From NCBI RefSeq assembly GCF_000153765.1, contig NZ_DS022295.1:498666-562665 (forward strand): DNA of 64,000 nt, written 5' to 3'. The stretch is from Mariprofundus ferrooxydans PV-1. Lineage in GTDB: Bacteria > Pseudomonadota > Zetaproteobacteria > Mariprofundales > Mariprofundaceae. Below are positions 240 through 16,570 of the stretch, piece by piece; within the stretch, counting starts at the first letter, position 1; the number at the start of each line of letters is the position of its first letter. The notes under the pieces were generated by a model. The model was not told the DNA's origin. It saw only the letters and a list, made by a program, of their open reading frames with translations, and searched no databases. A program made the position numbers and the translations under genes.

Positions 240-1082
240 TCAAAGGCGCCCTGTTTTATCGGCCGGGCGCAGGCGCAGAAACCTCGGGAAGCGCGGCAAC
301 CCACTGCTGGTCAGGCCGTTGAACCGGTATGTGATGATCGAACCAATCGGCGGCGGATTAGCCCGATCGCTGTCACTAAAACCACTGCCGATACGAAAAC
401 GTCTGCCGTCCATTGTCTCCACCTCGATAGCACCTGTTTTACCAGCCAGGCGACCGCGCCCCGGAATCAGCGCCACAACACGCGCTTCGGCATCATCATA
501 CGGCTTGTATTTGAGCAGCAGAGCGGAGCGTCCGCTTACATAGGGGGCATCGGCCCGGTGCAGCATCAACCCTTCGCCACCGGCGGCCACAACACTTTCG
601 AGTTTCTTACGCAGCCCGGCTGCATTTTTCACCCGGAACTGCCGCACAGGCAGCAGCCAGGGTATTCCTGCATCTGTTGTCAGCCGCACAATTTCCCGGC
701 TGCGGGCAGTGAAATCCCCTGCCATGCCCGGCAACTCGAATACCCGGTACTGCACCTGATGCCAGCGCTGATCTGTTGCACTGCCGCGACTAATCACACT
801 GGCGACTTCGGAGAAGCGCCCTCTGCCCATCCATAGCTCGCCATCCATCGCCCGCGAGGGGAAACCTGCGGCAAACCAGTGCGGCGCATGGATAAGATTG
901 CCGTTGCGGGTGTAGAGATGATGCCCGTCCCATAGGCAGCGCACGCCATCGAGCTTCTCGCTGACCAGATAGGCGGCAGGATCTCTTCCCGCATCCCACT
1001 TTTTCGCCAGCACCACCTCTTCGCCCCAAGTCTGCGCGGCGATGAACAGGCAAGTCAGGAGTAGAAGAATGGTTCGTTTCAT
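240..1082 (-). CDS. ligE: Exported minimal ATP-dependent DNA ligase (Lig E type)
   Basis: The 280-residue protein starts with a Sec-type signal peptide (residues 1-20). The rest is the adenylation plus OB-fold core of ATP-dependent DNA ligases with no extra domains. Motif I SEKLDGVR carries the adenylated lysine K43, motif III is DGELW (80-84), motif IV EGLMLH (170-175) and motif V LLKYKP (189-194). It should seal nicked DNA using ATP. Lig E-type enzymes with signal peptides occur in some Gram-negative bacteria and are thought to act on DNA in the periplasm, possibly linked to DNA uptake; that role is inference here. The ATG is preceded by AAGGGGG. The gene stands alone beside defence genes. 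Confidence 0.9.
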   Translation of the reverse strand: MKRTILLLLTCLFIAAQTWGEEVVLAKKWDAGRDPAAYLVSEKLDGVRCLWDGHHLYTRNGNLIHAPHWFAAGFPSRAMDGELWMGRGRFSEVASVISRGSATDQRWHQVQYRVFELPGMAGDFTARSREIVRLTTDAGIPWLLPVRQFRVKNAAGLRKKLESVVAAGGEGLMLHRADAPYVSGRSALLLKYKPYDDAEARVVALIPGRGRLAGKTGAIEVETMDGRRFRIGSGFSDSDRANPPPIGSIITYRFNGLTSSGLPRFPRFLRLRPADKTGRL

Positions 1083-1180: not shown

Positions 1181-1348
1181 TTCTTTGCCCTACCCATACC
1201 GCAACGATCCGACTAAGCCGTTACAACTGCGCCATCTCCGCGCTTCTTCCACAAACACCAAAAGTATTGCTATTGGCGCCCATCCCCGTAAAATACGCCA
1301 CAACACGGCCCGCGCCCCTTCATCTCCGGATGTAAGCGCGGGTTTTTT
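1181..1348 (+). ncRNA. Candidate small RNA, convergent with the abi gene
   Basis: No convincing plus-strand gene exists here, yet the stretch ends in a strong plus-strand intrinsic terminator (1309-1348). A weak promoter-like TATAGA (1169-1174) would give a transcript of about 168 bases. Inside, GCGCCA (1229-1234) can pair with TGGCGC (1274-1279). The transcript would end 13 bases before the stop of the minus-strand abi gene. AbiF-type HEPN proteins have been described with adjacent structured RNA partners, so an RNA antitoxin is possible, but nothing here proves expression or pairing with the protein. Confidence 0.3.
1309..1348 (+). terminator. Rho-independent terminator
   Basis: CCCGCGC (1309-1315) pairs with GCGCGGG (1336-1342), a smaller CATC/GATG hairpin sits in the loop, and six T residues follow on the plus strand (1343-1348). 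On the minus strand there is no T-run after the stem, so the direction is plus. Confidence 0.8.
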
Positions 1349-1360
1349 ATTGCCATGTAA

Positions 1361-2335
1361 TCACTGCCACAATGCCCATTGTTCCCAACCTTCAATAAGC
1401 CCCATATTGCCAGCACATACTCCTCCACCTGCGCCAATTTCCGGAAACTCACGGACCAGCTGTTTAAACCGCTCATTCCAGTGGCTATTCGGGCAGATTC
1501 GATTTAACAGATGCTGCATGATACAAAAAATAAGAAATGGCCTTGCGATTAATTCCTGCTTATCTCGAAAACAGTCCAGCTCCAACACATCCCCGGCTTT
1601 AGAAAGCTTAGGTTGATCAACTACGTTACGGTTCCAAAGACGACTATGGTGCGCACAAATATTTCTGATGTAATTCAGGCTGCGCAACCAGCTAGCAAAT
1701 ACGACTGGTTCGCTGATGCCAAATTTAGAAGCAATGGCTTGCTGATCCTTATATTGCATACCTGAATACAGTATTGAGAACATGCCAAAATCCCATGTCT
1801 CTACTGCCACCCAAATCGGCAGAGGAAGCCCATGCTTCTGGCGATAATGTTTGACAAACTCTTCTTTGGATCGAGACAGTGAGGTTTCAAATTTACTTAA
1901 CCATTGCTGGTGCCTGGACGCAGAAAACCCGGGTTTCACTTCAACAAAACGCGTGTTAAACAGTGCCGGGTTTTGATATGCAAATGTATCCCGTTCGCCA
2001 AGCAAGTGCGCAATACCTGTCCTGATAGCTACTTCAATGCGCTCCAACGCATCCGAAGCGAGCAGGCGCAGTTGCTTATCGTAAACATACAAGTGCACTG
2101 CATCCTGGAATTGTGTTCCTGCTACAAAGTTATCCAGCCGCTGGTAAGAAATTTTTCCTGATTCTTGCTTGCGAAAAACAATCTCACGAAATGGATACCA
2201 ATAACCGCTAAGGCGGTAATAACCAAGTCGTTCGAGGTAGTTGATTGCCTTTGCTTCGTCCGAAACCACCATGCCTCTGCATTTAAGCATGGCCAGCTGT
2301 TCTTCAAATGATTTCCACGGACGACTATATGACAT
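1361..2335 (-). CDS. Abi_2 (AbiD/AbiF) family HEPN protein
   Basis: A 324-residue protein of the Abi-like family (Abi_2). The N-terminus has the family features INYLERLGYYRLSGYWYPF (31-49). The HEPN-like catalytic motif is R224-x4-H229 in YIRNICAHHSRLWNR, the RNase signature of HEPN toxins. Family members act in abortive infection, probably by cutting RNA after phage infection or when an antitoxin is lost. The ATG has a strong ribosome site (GGGGGAG, 5 bases) and a good promoter upstream (2364-2392), so it is transcribed alone. No antitoxin protein is adjacent; a candidate RNA partner lies convergently at 1181-1348. Family and motif are clear; target and trigger are not known. Confidence 0.88.
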   Translation of the reverse strand: MSYSRPWKSFEEQLAMLKCRGMVVSDEAKAINYLERLGYYRLSGYWYPFREIVFRKQESGKISYQRLDNFVAGTQFQDAVHLYVYDKQLRLLASDALERIEVAIRTGIAHLLGERDTFAYQNPALFNTRFVEVKPGFSASRHQQWLSKFETSLSRSKEEFVKHYRQKHGLPLPIWVAVETWDFGMFSILYSGMQYKDQQAIASKFGISEPVVFASWLRSLNYIRNICAHHSRLWNRNVVDQPKLSKAGDVLELDCFRDKQELIARPFLIFCIMQHLLNRICPNSHWNERFKQLVREFPEIGAGGGVCAGNMGLIEGWEQWALWQ

Positions 2336-2363
2336 GCTTCTCCCCCGCAGTTAACTAGCAACA

Positions 2364-2392
2364 GTTATAATCGTGTCAGTTAAAAAACTCAA
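2364..2392 (-). promoter_or_regulatory. Sigma70-type promoter of the abi gene
   Basis: The minus strand shows TTGAGT (2392-2387), a 17-base spacer and TATAAC (2369-2364). Start of transcription would be near 2357, giving a leader of about 20 bases before the abi ATG. Confidence 0.6.
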
Positions 2393-2518
2393 TAACTCAT
2401 GGCTGAGTCCGGCTAACAGAAGGACCTCGGCACCAGATTCAAGATCACCCATGATGGGTTGTGACACTGTTGCTGTTTCATATATCATTAGTTCTTCATC
2501 TTACGGAGGCAAGCAACG

Positions 2519-4718: not shown

Positions 4719-4741
<23 letters not shown>
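4607..4741 (-). CDS. Possible 44-residue protein overlapping the hsdR 3' end
   Basis: A frame starting at GTG (4739-4741) runs 23 bases inside the end of hsdR and continues to TAA at 4607. AAGG lies four bases before the GTG. The product has beta-like stretches (ITSFIVAND, then LVRVIRGGFKVVVKG) and no membrane helix. Its stop overlaps an ATG (TAATG) that opens a ten-codon frame leading to orf94, suggesting translational coupling. This is a judgement from composition and layout only; it fills most of the gap between hsdR and orf94. Confidence 0.4.
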
Positions 4742-7991
<3,250 letters not shown>

Positions 7992-8112
7992 ACCATGCCT
8001 GCTTATATTATCTATCTTTTTCCCTGCTTAATCACATACAAAGTTTTGTCTTGCCCCTGCCTTTGAGCTGATCTGTTGCTCTTTCTCAAAGAGAACCGAG
8101 TTATTCAACAAC

Positions 8113-8985
8113 TCACTTTTTGAAAACTTTTCTGGCTATATCACTACTTCTCTGATCTTTATTAATCCAATTAATAAAGAGGGATGTATCAAATTCAATC
8201 TTATGCTGAAAAATGATAGAGCTATTGCTCCCTTCTTTTTTCTCTACATTCATCAATAATGATTCTTCACCCGTATTTTTATTTCGATTGTGCTCAGTAA
8301 AAAACATATTCAGACTAACGCTTGAATCATTTCGCTTTATCTGGTTTTTCGATATAAAAATTGATTTATTGAAAGATTCATTAATACTGGCTTTCAACTT
8401 ATCACCTACTTCACCCTTTAGATATTGATAGTTAATTGACCTATTTTTCATAAGATAAATAATCGCATATGGCAAATTATATCTATTCACAAATCGATAT
8501 AGGTGCCCTTGCTCTGATTTGAAGTCATTTAATATCGACTCGAACAATTTGTCGCCGACGTTCAGTCCAATCGCAGAGCTAATCATTGTTCGAATTATTT
8601 TGGCATTGTTGATAATGAGATCTAGCAGTTCGTTACTTACATCACCTTCCATTCGACGATCTGTACATGAAAACACAGCGGGATTAGCCAAATAGCATTC
8701 GTTGTATTTTGCTTCGTCATATTCTGCAATGCCCACGATTGTTTTTTGTGAATGCCTCGCATGCAAAGGTGCAGGTGAAGAATCCCCTTCGATAGTACTG
8801 CTGTCGGTATACAAGTTCACAATTACGATCGGATTTCTACATACTGGACAAACAGCATAATGCTTACCCTTTCCGTTCTCATTTTGATAATAAGGGGAAG
8901 CCTTTTTAGTTAACTTCTCAAAATCGTTAACAGTTAGTGGGCTCCCTACTTTCGGCACAGTGCCAATCAAATCAAAAATCTTCAT
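8113..8985 (-). CDS. Hypothetical AT-rich protein with putative zinc site (orf290)
   Basis: The family is not recognised with confidence. The 290-residue protein has an N-terminal CPVC pair (C46, C49) followed by H75, H78, C97 and C107, which could bind zinc. The rest is helical, charged and rich in N, K, I and S. Its base composition is clearly more AT-rich than hsdR or hsdM, a sign of separate origin. The ATG overlaps the stop of the PLD-like gene by four bases (ATGA), so the two are translationally coupled and probably act together. It sits inside the restriction locus just upstream of hsdR. Confidence 0.7.
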   Translation of the reverse strand: MKIFDLIGTVPKVGSPLTVNDFEKLTKKASPYYQNENGKGKHYAVCPVCRNPIVIVNLYTDSSTIEGDSSPAPLHARHSQKTIVGIAEYDEAKYNECYLANPAVFSCTDRRMEGDVSNELLDLIINNAKIIRTMISSAIGLNVGDKLFESILNDFKSEQGHLYRFVNRYNLPYAIIYLMKNRSINYQYLKGEVGDKLKASINESFNKSIFISKNQIKRNDSSVSLNMFFTEHNRNKNTGEESLLMNVEKKEGSNSSIIFQHKIEFDTSLFINWINKDQRSSDIARKVFKK

Positions 8986-9968
8986 AAAATAACCTTTTGT
9001 ATTTGAGTGTTTTTTTCTTCCTCGTCTTTAGTCTTACCAAATAGCCGATCTCTAGCTGTATTCATATCTATATAAACGGCATCCTGATTATCGTAGTTCA
9101 GCACCTTGATCTTTTCCTTCAACAGCCCCTTGTCTACTTCAGTAAGCTGTAGGCCATAGATGCTTTCAACTTTACGGCATAGAAACAGTGATGTGCCATT
9201 ATCATTAACCACCGTTTTGCCATCGGCCTTGAAGAGCCCCATCACTTCAAAGCCCCCCCTTGGGCCATAATATAGGTCGATAAAGTAAGCATCGCCCGGT
9301 AACTCAGGCCAATCCTCATAAGCATCCAAATCCATACCATGCCCGTCACTAATCCGCAGCTGATCAAGGAGTTCTTCTGCCTTATCACTGCGACAATCGC
9401 GAGTAATGGTGAAGTAGACCCGTTTGTCTTTGAAGAAATCCGGATTATCGCGGAGCTCACCGAGAATCGAGGAGTGTTTGGTCTGAACTGGCCTGGCTAT
9501 TCGCCTTTTTTCCCACTGCTCTTTTGCCGATTTAATATCTTCTTTGCTAATTGGCTTTGCCGCATCCCACTCACTGGATAACCATGTCTCAATCTTTGCC
9601 AACTGATCATGATCCAAGACTTTGTACCCAGCTTCGAGCCAACCTTGTGTCTCGTCACCCTCAAGCCCGAGGCCATTCGAGGATAAGTTAGCCGAACTCA
9701 CGATGGCAATATCATCCCCTAGGTACACTTTGGCATGGAGCAGGGGTTGGTTTTTTATCTGGATATTGCCCAAACCCATCAGTTCTTCGACCACATTGGG
9801 GTTGGTGGCTCCACTATCAAGATTACAAACGATGCGGATGCTGGCTTCGCTATCTCTGAGAACCTCTGCAGCTTTTCCACCCAGAAAGGCGACGGCACAA
9901 TGAATACTTCTTGCGGAAGAGAGCAATTCAAAGATTGCCTCAGTGTTCTCAGAGGAACCTAGGAACAC
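8982..9968 (-). CDS. PLD-like nuclease-family protein
   Basis: A 328-residue protein with one phospholipase D-type motif, H78-x-K80-x4-D85 (LLHAKVYLGDD), followed by SSANLSSNGL, the usual continuation in PLD-like nucleases. One motif per chain implies an active site formed by a dimer. The domain covers about residues 1-130; the remaining 200 residues are uncharacterised. The start is GTG; no earlier start codon fits because the frame is closed by TAA upstream. It is the third of four genes lying between hsdS and hsdR and is coupled to orf290. Expected substrate is nucleic acid, though some relatives are inactive. Confidence 0.8.
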   Translation of the reverse strand: MFLGSSENTEAIFELLSSARSIHCAVAFLGGKAAEVLRDSEASIRIVCNLDSGATNPNVVEELMGLGNIQIKNQPLLHAKVYLGDDIAIVSSANLSSNGLGLEGDETQGWLEAGYKVLDHDQLAKIETWLSSEWDAAKPISKEDIKSAKEQWEKRRIARPVQTKHSSILGELRDNPDFFKDKRVYFTITRDCRSDKAEELLDQLRISDGHGMDLDAYEDWPELPGDAYFIDLYYGPRGGFEVMGLFKADGKTVVNDNGTSLFLCRKVESIYGLQLTEVDKGLLKEKIKVLNYDNQDAVYIDMNTARDRLFGKTKDEEEKNTQIQKVIL

Positions 9969-10007
9969 CTTACAATTCCACCCGTATGCAAAATTTTATG
10001 ATGCCTA

Positions 10008-11840
10008 TCAAAATGCCCAAACCGTTTCACAGATTTTGCGATAAAGCTCCTGGCGTTTAATGATGTCTGCTTGCTTGAACTGCTCATGTGGTTCAAAGGG
10101 CAGGCCAAGCGTTTCTTTCATGCGCAGAAAATTCGGATTGTTTTGATAGGTCAGTGGGCAGAGTGTCTGCACAAAAAGGTTTTCTTTGATGTAGTGCTTC
10201 ATCTTTTCGGAATACGGCTTGGCACCATAGGACTGGTTGGCTCCGCGCGGCAATAAGACTAAGCCTCCAAGCCGATTCCGGTATTCGTCGAAGTCGCCTT
10301 TTTGCTCAAACTCATCCGTGTGCTCTTCAAACTTGTTACCCCAGATATGCTCGACTTCAAAAGGCTTGCCACCAGGGCTGAAATAATAGGTCTCAAATGT
10401 CTCGTTTCTGCCGGCATTTTTATCGATGAATGCGGAGATACGGGATAGCAGAAACTTTACAAACCGTCGGTTTTGTCCATGCAACCGGAAGACATCAAGA
10501 CCATTCCAAGTCTGTCCCATGTCATTCAATTTCTGGGTCAAAATCTCTTTCAGCTCATCCAGTGGTTTACTGCGAATCTCCTTCACCAATGTGTACATGG
10601 TGTAACGAATGGAGCTGGCGGAGAACTTCTTGAAGTTCACCGAACGGCGCACCACAAAGGTTTCAATATATTTGGCGACCAGATTGATTTTCTGATCGAC
10701 CATCTCAGGAGTGTCCGACTTAACCAAGGGGGCGAGCATGAGCGGATAACTAAGCGAATTGGCAATCCCCCATTGCTGTATGTAATAGACATGCTCCAGG
10801 GCAGGCGAGAGGCTTTCTTCCGCCTGTCTTATCTTCAGGTAGGCATCCCGAAAAAATGTGAAATCCTCGTTCACAAAGGTATCAAAGCCGCTTTGGGAAT
10901 TGTCAGAGAGTTTCAGTAGCTCCAGGTTCTCACGCACCCAGCTATGGAAGCGCGTGCCGATTTTCTCAAAGTCCTCATTCTTGGAGCCAGCGGAGCCGGG
11001 GCGAATGCTTTCGGCATATTTGGCACGCAACCAAGCTTGAAAGAATCTCTGATCCTCATCCTTGTCGAAACAATGTAGCTGCTGGATCGACTCCTTCCAC
11101 AGGTCGTTGGCCTTCTGCCGAACCTCATTCTCTTTGAAGCGGGAGAGCACAAATCCCTTCAGCATTTCCGTTGAGGTCAGGTTCATACCTCGATCGTTCA
11201 TCGTTTCGAAAATGGTATAGGCGTTGTCATCCGAGTAGGCGACGATCTCTACCAACACCACCCGCTCTTTCATCCAATCGATGAAGTATGGTAATGAAGT
11301 TTGGTCGATCTCTTTGGGAAAGGCTGGTTCAATATCCTCGTAACGGGCTGCCATATTCCGGGTCGATTCGTCATCGCCGTTATTTGGTGTGTAAGCCCCT
11401 TGGTTGAACAAGCTATCCAGGCATGGGATACGCTCTTCAACCGTAATATTGAAAGATTTACTGCCGAATTTTTCTGAGTAGATCATGTCATCAAGCTTTA
11501 ACACTAAACCATAATCACGTTCTAAATTCTTCAGATAAATCATAAAAAGTGTTAAGGAGGTTAAGCGCTGTTGGCCATCAATAATGCTTCGTTTACCACC
11601 CTTTTCACTGAGAACGAATGGTCCGAGATAATAGCTATTATAATTTGCTACTTCTTTGCGCTCATGGCTTGAGTCGTACTCGGAAAGGAAAGCGGAGGTC
11701 AAATCGGTTACCAATTGCTCGATATGCTTTTGCTGCCAGCTGTATTCGCGTTGAAAGTAATCCACCGTATACTTTTTGTTATCCAGCACTTCCAGAACGG
11801 TGCGATCATTCGCTTCGATTTTGTTTTCCAACTTACCCAT
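10008..11840 (-). CDS. DUF262/DUF1524 protein (GmrSD-like)
   Basis: A 610-residue protein with an N-terminal DUF262 domain: YFQREYSW (28-35) and the signature IIDGQQRLTSL (86-96), a ParB/sulfiredoxin-like nucleotide-binding fold. The C-terminal DUF1524 domain is HNH-like, with EVEHIWGNKF (495-504), NRLGGL (522-527) and N535. This is the GmrS plus GmrD layout in one chain, as in GmrSD-type and related enzymes that cut modified phage DNA, and in other defence proteins. Here it lies within a type I restriction locus, so it could act on modified DNA that HsdR cannot cut; that is inference. Confidence 0.88.
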   Translation of the reverse strand: MGKLENKIEANDRTVLEVLDNKKYTVDYFQREYSWQQKHIEQLVTDLTSAFLSEYDSSHERKEVANYNSYYLGPFVLSEKGGKRSIIDGQQRLTSLTLFMIYLKNLERDYGLVLKLDDMIYSEKFGSKSFNITVEERIPCLDSLFNQGAYTPNNGDDESTRNMAARYEDIEPAFPKEIDQTSLPYFIDWMKERVVLVEIVAYSDDNAYTIFETMNDRGMNLTSTEMLKGFVLSRFKENEVRQKANDLWKESIQQLHCFDKDEDQRFFQAWLRAKYAESIRPGSAGSKNEDFEKIGTRFHSWVRENLELLKLSDNSQSGFDTFVNEDFTFFRDAYLKIRQAEESLSPALEHVYYIQQWGIANSLSYPLMLAPLVKSDTPEMVDQKINLVAKYIETFVVRRSVNFKKFSASSIRYTMYTLVKEIRSKPLDELKEILTQKLNDMGQTWNGLDVFRLHGQNRRFVKFLLSRISAFIDKNAGRNETFETYYFSPGGKPFEVEHIWGNKFEEHTDEFEQKGDFDEYRNRLGGLVLLPRGANQSYGAKPYSEKMKHYIKENLFVQTLCPLTYQNNPNFLRMKETLGLPFEPHEQFKQADIIKRQELYRKICETVWAF

Positions 11841-11864
11841 AAATCCTCACTTTAAAGTGCTTAA

Positions 11865-12764
11865 TCACTTCCACTCTGCCCACCCCAAATCACACAGGAT
11901 CACACCTACACATTGCACAGCAAGTTGCGCATCCTGCTCCCGCAACTCACGAACACCTCGAGCCTCCTGCTCTGCATGTTTGCCTCTGGAATGCAGTCTT
12001 GCCGCTATCTCTCCCGCACAGGCAACGACCCGGCGCCCATGTTTCCCCGAATAATCAACCAAAAGGCCAACCAGTTTACTCAGGTCTTCACCCTTGGCTT
12101 TTGCGATGTCTTCCTTCTGCAAATAAGCGCTAAGTATGGCTGTTGCAGCTTCTCTAGCCCGATCCACGACGGACTCAACACCAGCTCTGTGAAACTCATC
12201 TTCCAGTGTATCCAGCTTCTCCCGCACGGCAGAAACAGCTGATTCTGGCACCTTGCTCCAATCTACTGCAGGAAGAGCGCCAAAACTTTGCCTCGCTTTC
12301 AGCATGACAATTTCTTCCCCGGTAAAACCGGTTTCCAAATGTATCACCTGCCAGAGCGTCGATGCCGTATCGTCACCCAGTCGAACCAAGACCTCTGCAA
12401 CCTGCTGCCTCTCAAACTCACGACTCATTTTCCAAGGTTCATAGTGGGTTAGCCCGGAAGCTTTGTAAGCGCCATCAGAGTCCTGTTGAAAATGAGGAAA
12501 GGTAACCATCGGGTGTGGATAAACCCGCCATGGGCCTCCACTTTGACCCGTAGCTTTATAGAACCGTCCTCGCCGAACGCGACTCACCAGGTCAAAAGAG
12601 TCCTCCCGAAAATAATAAGGTGCTTCACGATTTAAGCCGGAGCTTGCGACTTCCTTTCCTGCTGCACCCAAAAACTTCGCCACACTCATGACTGGCGTGG
12701 GCCAAACCACGCTTTCATCTTCAAACACCCATCCTTTACTTGGATCAATGCCTAATCTGTACAT
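11865..12764 (-). CDS. Hypothetical protein orf300 of the restriction locus
   Basis: The family is not recognised. The chosen ATG (12762-12764) gives 299 residues starting MYRLGIDPSKG, with GGAG seven bases upstream. An upstream in-frame start at 12818 would add 18 residues that come only from the 73-bp repeat and is rejected. The N-terminal half is rich in W, P, Y and F; the C-terminal half is helical and charged, and ends in VQCVGVILCDLGWAEWK. An R-x6-H spacing in RLHSRGKH is compatible with a HEPN-type motif, but the evidence is thin. The next gene begins 24 bases downstream. Ribosome site and start codon both lie in or at the edge of the repeat. Confidence 0.7.
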   Translation of the reverse strand: MYRLGIDPSKGWVFEDESVVWPTPVMSVAKFLGAAGKEVASSGLNREAPYYFREDSFDLVSRVRRGRFYKATGQSGGPWRVYPHPMVTFPHFQQDSDGAYKASGLTHYEPWKMSREFERQQVAEVLVRLGDDTASTLWQVIHLETGFTGEEIVMLKARQSFGALPAVDWSKVPESAVSAVREKLDTLEDEFHRAGVESVVDRAREAATAILSAYLQKEDIAKAKGEDLSKLVGLLVDYSGKHGRRVVACAGEIAARLHSRGKHAEQEARGVRELREQDAQLAVQCVGVILCDLGWAEWK

Positions 12765-12906
12765 CACAAATCTCCACGGATGGATGATTTGGACGAGCTT
12801 TGCTCGCCCGCAGGGCATGGGGCATGATGCCGAACATCACAAATCGGCATGGATAGCCGATTTGGACGACTGTAAGTCGCCCGTAGGGTGTGAGACATGA
12901 TGTCTC
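12761..12906 (+). repeat. Two tandem copies (b, c) of the 73-bp repeat
   Basis: Units 12761-12833 and 12834-12906 each begin ACATCAC and are exactly 73 bases long. The sequence after the second begins ACATCAA, so a six-base ACATCA is repeated at every boundary. Conserved blocks are GATTTGGACGA, TCGCCCG, AGGG and CATGATG. Hairpin 1 is CGAGC/GCTCG in copy b and CGACT/AGTCG in copy c; hairpin 2 is GGCAT/ATGCC and GTGAGACAT/ATGTCTCAC. These are compensatory differences. The array separates orf300 from hsdS and forms coding sequence at the hsdS end. Confidence 0.88.
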
Positions 12907-14224
12907 ACATCAATCTTGCCTGTAACAGCAGCAGAGATCAGGGCTGTGCGGCGCTCTTTCATAAGTAATATTGAATATTCAGCCTTGGCAATTAAATCAT
13001 CAAACTTTGGCAATCTCATATCAATTTCAGCAGCAATTTCTTTTTGTTCTTTGAATGGTGGCATCAACACATTGAACTTTCTTAAATCAGCTTGAAATAA
13101 ATGAGGTACACCCATGCCGCCTTGAATTCGTTTAATTACGTTTTGAACATAAGTCGAAACAAAAAAGTAATATAAATAACTACTATCTATTCTACCCACA
13201 CTTCGTAGAACGGCTATCGAACTATTGACGGTAGCCGGTGAGGGTAACTCCCTTACAATATTCGTAGTTCCTGTGGTTGATCCATCTTTCGTTACTAAGA
13301 CATCGCCTTCATTAAGCATGATTTCTGGTGATTCATCGTATCTTGCCTTGGTAATATAATTAACATTCTCAAAATCAATTTTTTCGCCTTTTATGTTAGG
13401 TGTTGCTAAGAAAATGTATCCTTCATCAACATATTCTTCGGCTTTTAGACCTTTCCACCCCAACCGAGCTTTTACAGAGCACTCAAAGCCTAGGCTGCTT
13501 ATTTCCCAATGCGCCGGGACTTCGCCTAGCCATTCGATGCCGGAATTGCGCATGGGGGCATCGGGATTTAAGCCTTTGGTGACGGCATGGCTGATCACGG
13601 CCTGACGCTTCTCTTTCAGCAGCTTGATCAGCTGCTGCTGCTTTTCGATCAGGGTGTCGATTTTGGCGGTTTCACGGTCGAGAAAGTTGGCAATTTCCAT
13701 TTGTTCATCATGCTGTGGGACAGCAGCAATGTAATTATTCAAAACATCTGATGGGACTCTTTTCAAGCCGCCAGCCCCAGTCATAGCTGCGATTGCAATT
13801 TCCATGAAGCTATCTTCTTGTAATCGGTAAAATAGAAATCTGTTAGACACCCTTTGATTAGCTCGAATTACATATATTTCAGAAGAGCCAAAACCAACTC
13901 CATTTACCAGATCCTGAGCTATTGCAATGTTCTTATTCTCAAAGCATGGAGTTACTTTTGCCATCAACACATCTGAATCAGCGAAATAAGTATATCCATC
14001 ATAAACATCATCAATAGTCCGCACTTCATCTAAAACAATTGAATCTGTCTTAAGTTTTTCCATTGGAATAAAACTACATTCCTTGTCACGAGAAATTTTA
14101 GGTTTCTTCGGGGTTAACTCTGAAATGTACTTAGTACGGGTCAAAACCCAATGAGCAGGTATCTCCCCCAGCCATTCAACTCCAGAATCCTTATACTCTG
14201 GATAAGGCGGATACTTGCCTGGCA

Positions 14225-14225
<1 letters not shown>
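12837..14225 (-). CDS. hsdS: Type I restriction enzyme specificity subunit (HsdS)
   Basis: A 462-residue specificity subunit with two target recognition domains. Each half starts with the same element (SGVEWLGEIPAHW near residue 14 and SGIEWLGEVPAHW near 229), and helical spacers follow each domain, the first around LIEKQQQLIKLLKEKRQAV. The first recognition domain is AT-rich compared with the spacers, typical of domain swapping. The usual end AAVTGKIDV is followed by 22 residues encoded by repeat copy c, stopping at TGA on the repeat boundary. The ATG overlaps the hsdM stop by one base (TGATG). It sets the DNA sequence methylated and cut by the complex. Confidence 0.95.

Positions 14226-16570
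<2,345 letters not shown>

Follow-up and report, generated by a model that had tools for sequence, protein, structure and literature searches.

AbiF, together with its RNA, is regarded as a precursor of Cas13. In C. difficile, the RNA RCd22 neutralises AbiF both in cis and in trans by binding directly to the protein (PMC12373285). RCd22 is encoded upstream of abiF on the same strand and is co-transcribed with it, with a terminator positioned before abiF (PMC12373285). In this usual layout, one promoter and the terminator set the antitoxin excess (PMC5086642, PMC12373285). The type III systems ToxIN, AbiQ, TenpIN and CptIN carry a tandem-repeat antitoxin upstream of the toxin in one operon (PMC5086642). 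HEPN/Abi2 genes have also been described as embedded in restriction-modification (R-M) operons; the parts of that paper drawn upon here list the association with R-M genes and not an RNA (PMC3710099).

The stretch of DNA analysed here (the window, 64 kb; G000:C3:498666-562665 of a 2.99-Mb genome) contains an abiF gene. The Abi_2 domain of its product is recognised with E=6.7e-60 and 203 bits (Pfam cut-off 25.6), and the product matches PADLOC AbiD (7e-67). The sole significant solved relative by sequence is 8VZ6, the structure of PbAbiF with its bound ncRNA (3.1e-36, residues 3-324). The AF2 model (pLDDT 92.4) has the PbAbiF fold, as a Foldseek search of the PDB with this model returns 8vz6_A (9.4e-19, TMq 0.78) and no other significant match. 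The R-x4-H motif, described as intact in the preliminary description, is so: R224 and H229 align with R210 and H215 of 8VZ6, and R224, N225, A228, H229 and H230 are unchanged across 16 relatives. By domain, motif and predicted fold, the protein is a member of the AbiF/Abi_2 HEPN family, for which RNase activity and toxicity are predicted. No antitoxin-like protein gene adjoins abiF, and none is found between abiF and the ligase gene at 240-1082(-), as had been stated before. The strong promoter previously attributed to abiF is present as a candidate, but it is of moderate quality, and the promoter scan does not call it.

Just past the abiF stop codon, on the opposite strand, the preliminary description had placed a strong terminator. 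This hairpin, CCCGCGC...GCGCGGG followed by TTTTTT, does end at 1348, 13 bases from the stop; it is missing from a simple terminator scan because its loop is longer than 8 nt. Its presence exceeds chance, since the same hairpin stands beside nearly every close AbiF relative. The hairpin constitutes the 3' half of a small RNA gene (Table 1). A short plus-strand transcript without a protein gene had been proposed to span 1181-1348; a conserved RNA unit is indeed found, but its length is about 50 nt and not 168 nt. The locus, 1267-1351(+), reads TTGCTA-16-TAAAAT-7-AACAC GGCCCGCGC CCCUU CAUC UCCG GAUG UAA GCGCGGGUU UUUUAUU. The RNA thus starts with the 5' AACAC and continues through a 9-bp outer stem, the CCCUU internal loop, a 4-bp inner hairpin, UAA, the second arm of the outer stem and the U tract. 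A sigma-70-like promoter is found in 28 homologous RNAs with a mean score of 9.3/12, compared with 5.9 in shuffles, mostly 7 nt before the RNA start. At one locus (L127) it is a perfect TTGACA/TATAAT.

Table 1. Features of the abiF locus and of the convergent RNA gene (window coordinates).
Feature	Position	Strand	Basis
Small RNA gene, candidate antitoxin, ~50 nt	1302..1351	plus	R1 covariance model, conservation, covariation
RNA promoter, -35 TTGCTA	1267..1272	plus	promoter scan, 9/12; conserved in homologues
RNA promoter, -10 TAAAAT, 7 nt ahead of RNA start	1289..1294	plus	promoter scan; conserved in homologues
Outer stem, 5' arm GGCCCGCGC	1307..1315	plus	fold and pair counts
Outer stem, 3' arm GCGCGGGUU, leading into terminator U tract 1343-1348	1336..1344	plus	fold and pair counts
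abiF, 324 aa, putative RNase toxin	1361..2335	minus	Pfam Abi_2, PADLOC AbiD, PDB 8VZ6
R-x4-H catalytic motif, R224-N-I-C-A-H229	1649..1666	minus	alignment with 8VZ6 and relatives
Shine-Dalgarno GGGGGAG of abiF	2340-2346	minus	by eye
Candidate abiF promoter, TTGAGT (2387-2392)-17 nt-TATAAC (2364-2369)	2364..2392	minus	by eye, moderate, 9/12
abiF 5' region, without R1-type RNA or Rfam abiF RNA, unlike other AbiF genes	2336..2518	minus	

When 84,980 species genomes were scanned at the protein level for AbiF relatives, 30 loci were obtained. Among the 22 loci with a near-full-length AbiF (L055-L076), chosen only by AbiF similarity, 21 have the same RNA in the same place and on the same strand, either directly past the abiF stop codon or slightly overlapping it. 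Two of these RNAs (L071, L073) were found by the covariance model, and that of L064 was recognised by alignment alone and is not listed by the model. The exception, L074 from Opitutae, carries its RNA upstream and co-directional. Further convergent loci, selected by protein or by family, are L110, L112, L116 and L123-L127, and more weakly L131. No full-length AbiF of the window's group was seen without an RNA. Judging by these loci, the convergent layout, rightly called unusual in the preliminary description, is common to the whole group and not private to the strain. In L110, L112, L116 and L123-L127, which lie in a separate branch of the convergent group, the RNA takes a long-loop form (AACACGGCCCCTNTCGGYT...GCTGCTNAGGGGTTTTTTATTGCC).

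The fold of the RNA is conserved. In 18 aligned sequences, the nine pairs of the outer stem are formed in 96.9% of the cells, compared with at most 52.5% when the arms are slid against each other, a control that keeps the relatedness of the sequences. The covariation score of this set is 0.410 against 0.150 in shuffled alignments (0/500). In the 12 sequences that possess both helices the score is 0.550 against 0.212 (0/500), and changes on both sides are found in 8 of the 14 pairs (33 cells against 12.8 shuffled, 0/500); the shuffles in all these comparisons ignore relatedness.

The window pair resembles PbAbiF-ncRNA (8VZ6) and AbiF-RCd22 in its full-length HEPN family protein, its R-x4-H pair and an adjoining RNA with a GC stem. 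As in AbiF-AbiFr, a conserved structured RNA adjoins abiF. Unlike AbiFr and RCd22, which are upstream and on the same strand, the window RNA lies downstream, is convergent and has its own promoter. Like the type III systems ToxIN, AbiQ, TenpIN and CptIN, the window pair would consist of a protein toxin with RNase activity and a small RNA that holds it, but their toxin fold is unrelated to that of AbiF. Neither the canonical type III order (one promoter, antitoxin first, terminator between) nor the tandem repeats are seen here: the two genes are on opposite strands with separate promoters, and the RNA is single-copy, with one match to the covariance model R1 in the window. RNAs of the Rfam family RF03085 are likewise short and linked to abiF, and combine an asymmetric internal loop and an inner hairpin with an outer stem rich in GC. 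In the window RNA, however, the internal loop is long on its 5' side (CUCUU) and short on its 3' side, and the RNA is single-copy. The known AbiF-associated RNA that a covariance search might have revealed is not present: RF03085 has no match in the window, the region 2336-2518 included, nor does it match the window RNA in a 121-nt search with E up to 10. At gathering and relaxed thresholds, Rfam gives only chance matches in the window, such as OmrA-B with 16.9 bits, and neither Rfam nor R1 detects an upstream RNA at 2336-2518. Since the features of the protein and the conserved RNA agree with AbiF systems, whereas the type III layout and RF03085 do not fit, the best explanation is that the pair works like an AbiF/RNA type III pair and that its gene arrangement is new. 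No description of a convergent AbiF RNA was found in the open literature searched, though Zilberzwige-Tal et al. may have seen such loci.

By combining all this information, it is possible to propose, with a probability of roughly 0.8, that the locus encodes a toxin and an RNA antitoxin paired in a type III-like manner, with the antitoxin gene convergent to abiF and served by a promoter of its own, where expression of the RNA, its binding to AbiF and neutralisation are predicted. The convergent partner suggested at the outset is upheld by its occurrence in 21 of 22 relatives, the compensatory changes, strand-specific wobble pairs, the conserved promoter and the upstream position of the same family elsewhere. 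We infer the antitoxin role of the RNA from the AbiF systems that have been studied (PMC12373285, PDB 8VZ6), and by this analogy the RNA very probably keeps AbiF switched off. AbiF would be a HEPN RNase toxin. The RNA would be made from its own promoter and end at its own hairpin and U tract just before the abiF stop codon. It would then act in trans, binding the AbiF dimer and blocking the RNase, as AbiFr and RCd22 do. A drop in the RNA, such as might follow a phage's shutdown of host transcription, would free AbiF to cleave cellular RNA, and both growth and phage production would be stopped.

It is improbable that the RNA is instead an antisense, type I-like regulator, which lies opposite the 3' untranslated region of the abiF mRNA and works through base pairing or through collision of transcription. 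An abiF transcript running past its stop codon is complementary to the RNA, and in Marinomonas the 3' end of the RNA overlaps the abiF stop region. In the window, however, the RNA does not overlap the abiF coding region. Complementarity is an automatic consequence of the convergent position, while the compensatory changes preserve the fold. RNAs of the same family are found upstream of abiF and co-directional with it, thus not antisense: on a Microvirga plasmid (L128; R1, 59.8 bits), beside an intact abiF in L092 (43.0 bits), and in L109 (38.1 bits) and L074 (31.9 bits). At these four loci the RNA therefore works without antisense overlap. That the same RNA is used from two genomic positions argues for its action in trans on the protein, and against attenuation or antisense control.

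It is very unlikely that the hairpin serves as a terminator alone and that no functional RNA partner exists. Two minus-strand genes do flank a plus-strand hairpin of good quality that is followed by a U tract. A terminator would not account for an inner hairpin whose sequence varies while its pairing is kept, for the conservation of the unpaired AAYAY and CUCUU and of a promoter 7 nt ahead of the RNA start, or for the fact that the element tracks AbiF in many genomic contexts.

It is just as hard to believe that the element is a separate small RNA, at home in R-M/defence islands, which merely hitch-hikes beside abiF. R1 gives 62.3 bits for the window RNA, its only match in the 64 kb; sequences that were not used to train it reach 60.9 and 60.0 (Lautropia), 51.5, 48.7 and 42.1 bits. 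Among 74 genomes of the family, it has four matches with E<1e-3: the window, G012, G073 (with a decayed abiF) and the locus already known as L068. Across 398 genomes of the phylum, matches occur in eight, the new ones being L092, L093, L094, L095 and L096. The match in L095 is a plain terminator. No abiF was detected within 1.5 kb of the matches in L093, L094 and L096; abiF relics beside L094 and L096 were suspected by eye, and these two loci are counted as orphans because tblastn gave no support for the relics. The L093 match, 1501-1546(-), has 39.8 bits and is flanked by a yicC-like gene and by part of an HTH-type ORF.

The G012 copy (L029 1504-1553(-), G012:C25; 63 bits) is likewise an orphan. 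No Abi_2 was found in this genome, which was also the only match of the intergenic DNA within the genus. Its core is identical in 48 of 50 bases, the promoter is conserved, and the neighbours are hsdS and a truncated hsdR. This copy and the absence of abiF near L093 favour a hitch-hiker. However, a short stretch beside the G012 RNA can be aligned with the last abiF codons, and abiF fragments are kept next to an intact RNA in L087 (75 aa) and in L081, where a deletion removed the R-x4-H region. Survival of the RNA after loss of abiF in these three cases is what is predicted of a toxin/antitoxin pair. Furthermore, the RNA immediately adjoins AbiF on chromosomes and plasmids alike, amid unrelated neighbours, and its place next to AbiF in both layouts argues for a function with AbiF. 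The orphan in G012 may be a fossil, or it may serve as protection from AbiF modules that arrive from outside; since its core is preserved though abiF is gone, the RNA may have a role besides AbiF, or abiF may have been lost very recently.

Finally, the suggestion that the element is part of the 3' untranslated region of the abiF mRNA, for which the nearly palindromic outer stem allows a similar hairpin to be drawn, can be dismissed, because the stems contain 49 G.U and no A.C pairs on the convergent strand, all 49 of which become A.C mismatches on the abiF strand, and the convergent strand also carries the promoter and the U tract. This asymmetry identifies the convergent strand as that of the RNA and rules out the candidate on the abiF strand.

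Returning to the toxin-antitoxin pair with a convergent RNA gene, the two layouts suggest how it could have arisen. By eye, an RNA-like hairpin on the same strand precedes the start codon of most other Abi_2 genes, and the upstream RNAs of L009 and L012 resemble RF03085 (29 bits, under the gathering score). The upstream position of the window-type RNA in the Microvirga plasmid implies that the RNA gene moved and flipped. In a tree of 56 proteins, all 25 convergent rows fall into one clade (SH-aLRT 97), next to L092. In a wider tree of 46 rows, the layout requires two changes, compared with 15 when shuffled, and a single convergent clade is not rejected (2.25 log units higher, AU p 0.58). The trees thus point to one or two origins and are compatible with one relocation. 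The antitoxin gene would have been relocated from an upstream, co-directional position with an attenuating terminator to a downstream, convergent one with a free-standing promoter. AbiF could therefore be driven by its own promoter or by that of a neighbour, often a type I R-M operon, with the RNA supplied independently, and the separate RNA promoter would have to set the antitoxin excess.

Such neighbours are present. An hsdS-like ORF is followed directly by abiF in L055, L057, L058, L063, L066 and L072 (by eye), and in a Methylobacter plasmid abiF is annotated between hsdS and hsdR. In these positions abiF is probably co-expressed with the R-M genes, unlike the RNA. These relatives, and the window with its adjacent type I R-M island, are like the cases listed in the parts of PMC3710099 considered here. 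A broader scenario is tentative and somewhat doubtful: a Pseudomonadota-wide AbiF subfamily may have uncoupled toxin and RNA in one relocation, from an attenuator-coupled upstream RNA to a free-standing convergent one, which would have let AbiF plug into type I R-M operons; read-through from abiF, antisense across the antitoxin gene, might then provide a feedback not described for RNA-antitoxin systems.

RNA toxin-antitoxin systems are a known kind, and the convergent gene arrangement is the new part. One RNA family in both layouts separates the effect of the RNA on the protein from the effect of its position on expression, and these natural rearrangements allow a test of whether attenuation is needed for an RNA antitoxin. 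R1 covers an RNA family missed by the Rfam abiF model. For AbiF genes that seem to lack a partner, the rule is to search the opposite strand beyond the stop codon.

The R-M island of the window, 4719-16570(-), comprises hsdM (14225-16570), hsdS (12837-14225) and hsdR (4719-7991), and between them lie additional genes, namely a DUF262-like ORF of 610 aa (10008-11840) and a PLD-like ORF (8982-9968); except for hsdR, these names were read from the sequence only. The same genome contains an AbiF paralogue (L002, G000:C3:1184493-1188065) whose start is immediately preceded by an RNA-like element, CAACACCCGCCTCGCCTCTCCCTGAAGCGCATTTTTGGCGGGTTTTTTT, in the upstream, co-directional layout; nearly identical elements are found in L007, L010 and L011. 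An ORF of 45 codons (MIYETATVSQPIMGDLESG...) at 2351-2488(-) stops just ahead of the window abiF and spans its candidate promoter. In Mariprofundus erugo (L064 / L004), a small Lys/Ala-rich ORF (MANKKVTGPKAASSAAKTLTSKATG...) is located upstream of abiF and ends at its start.
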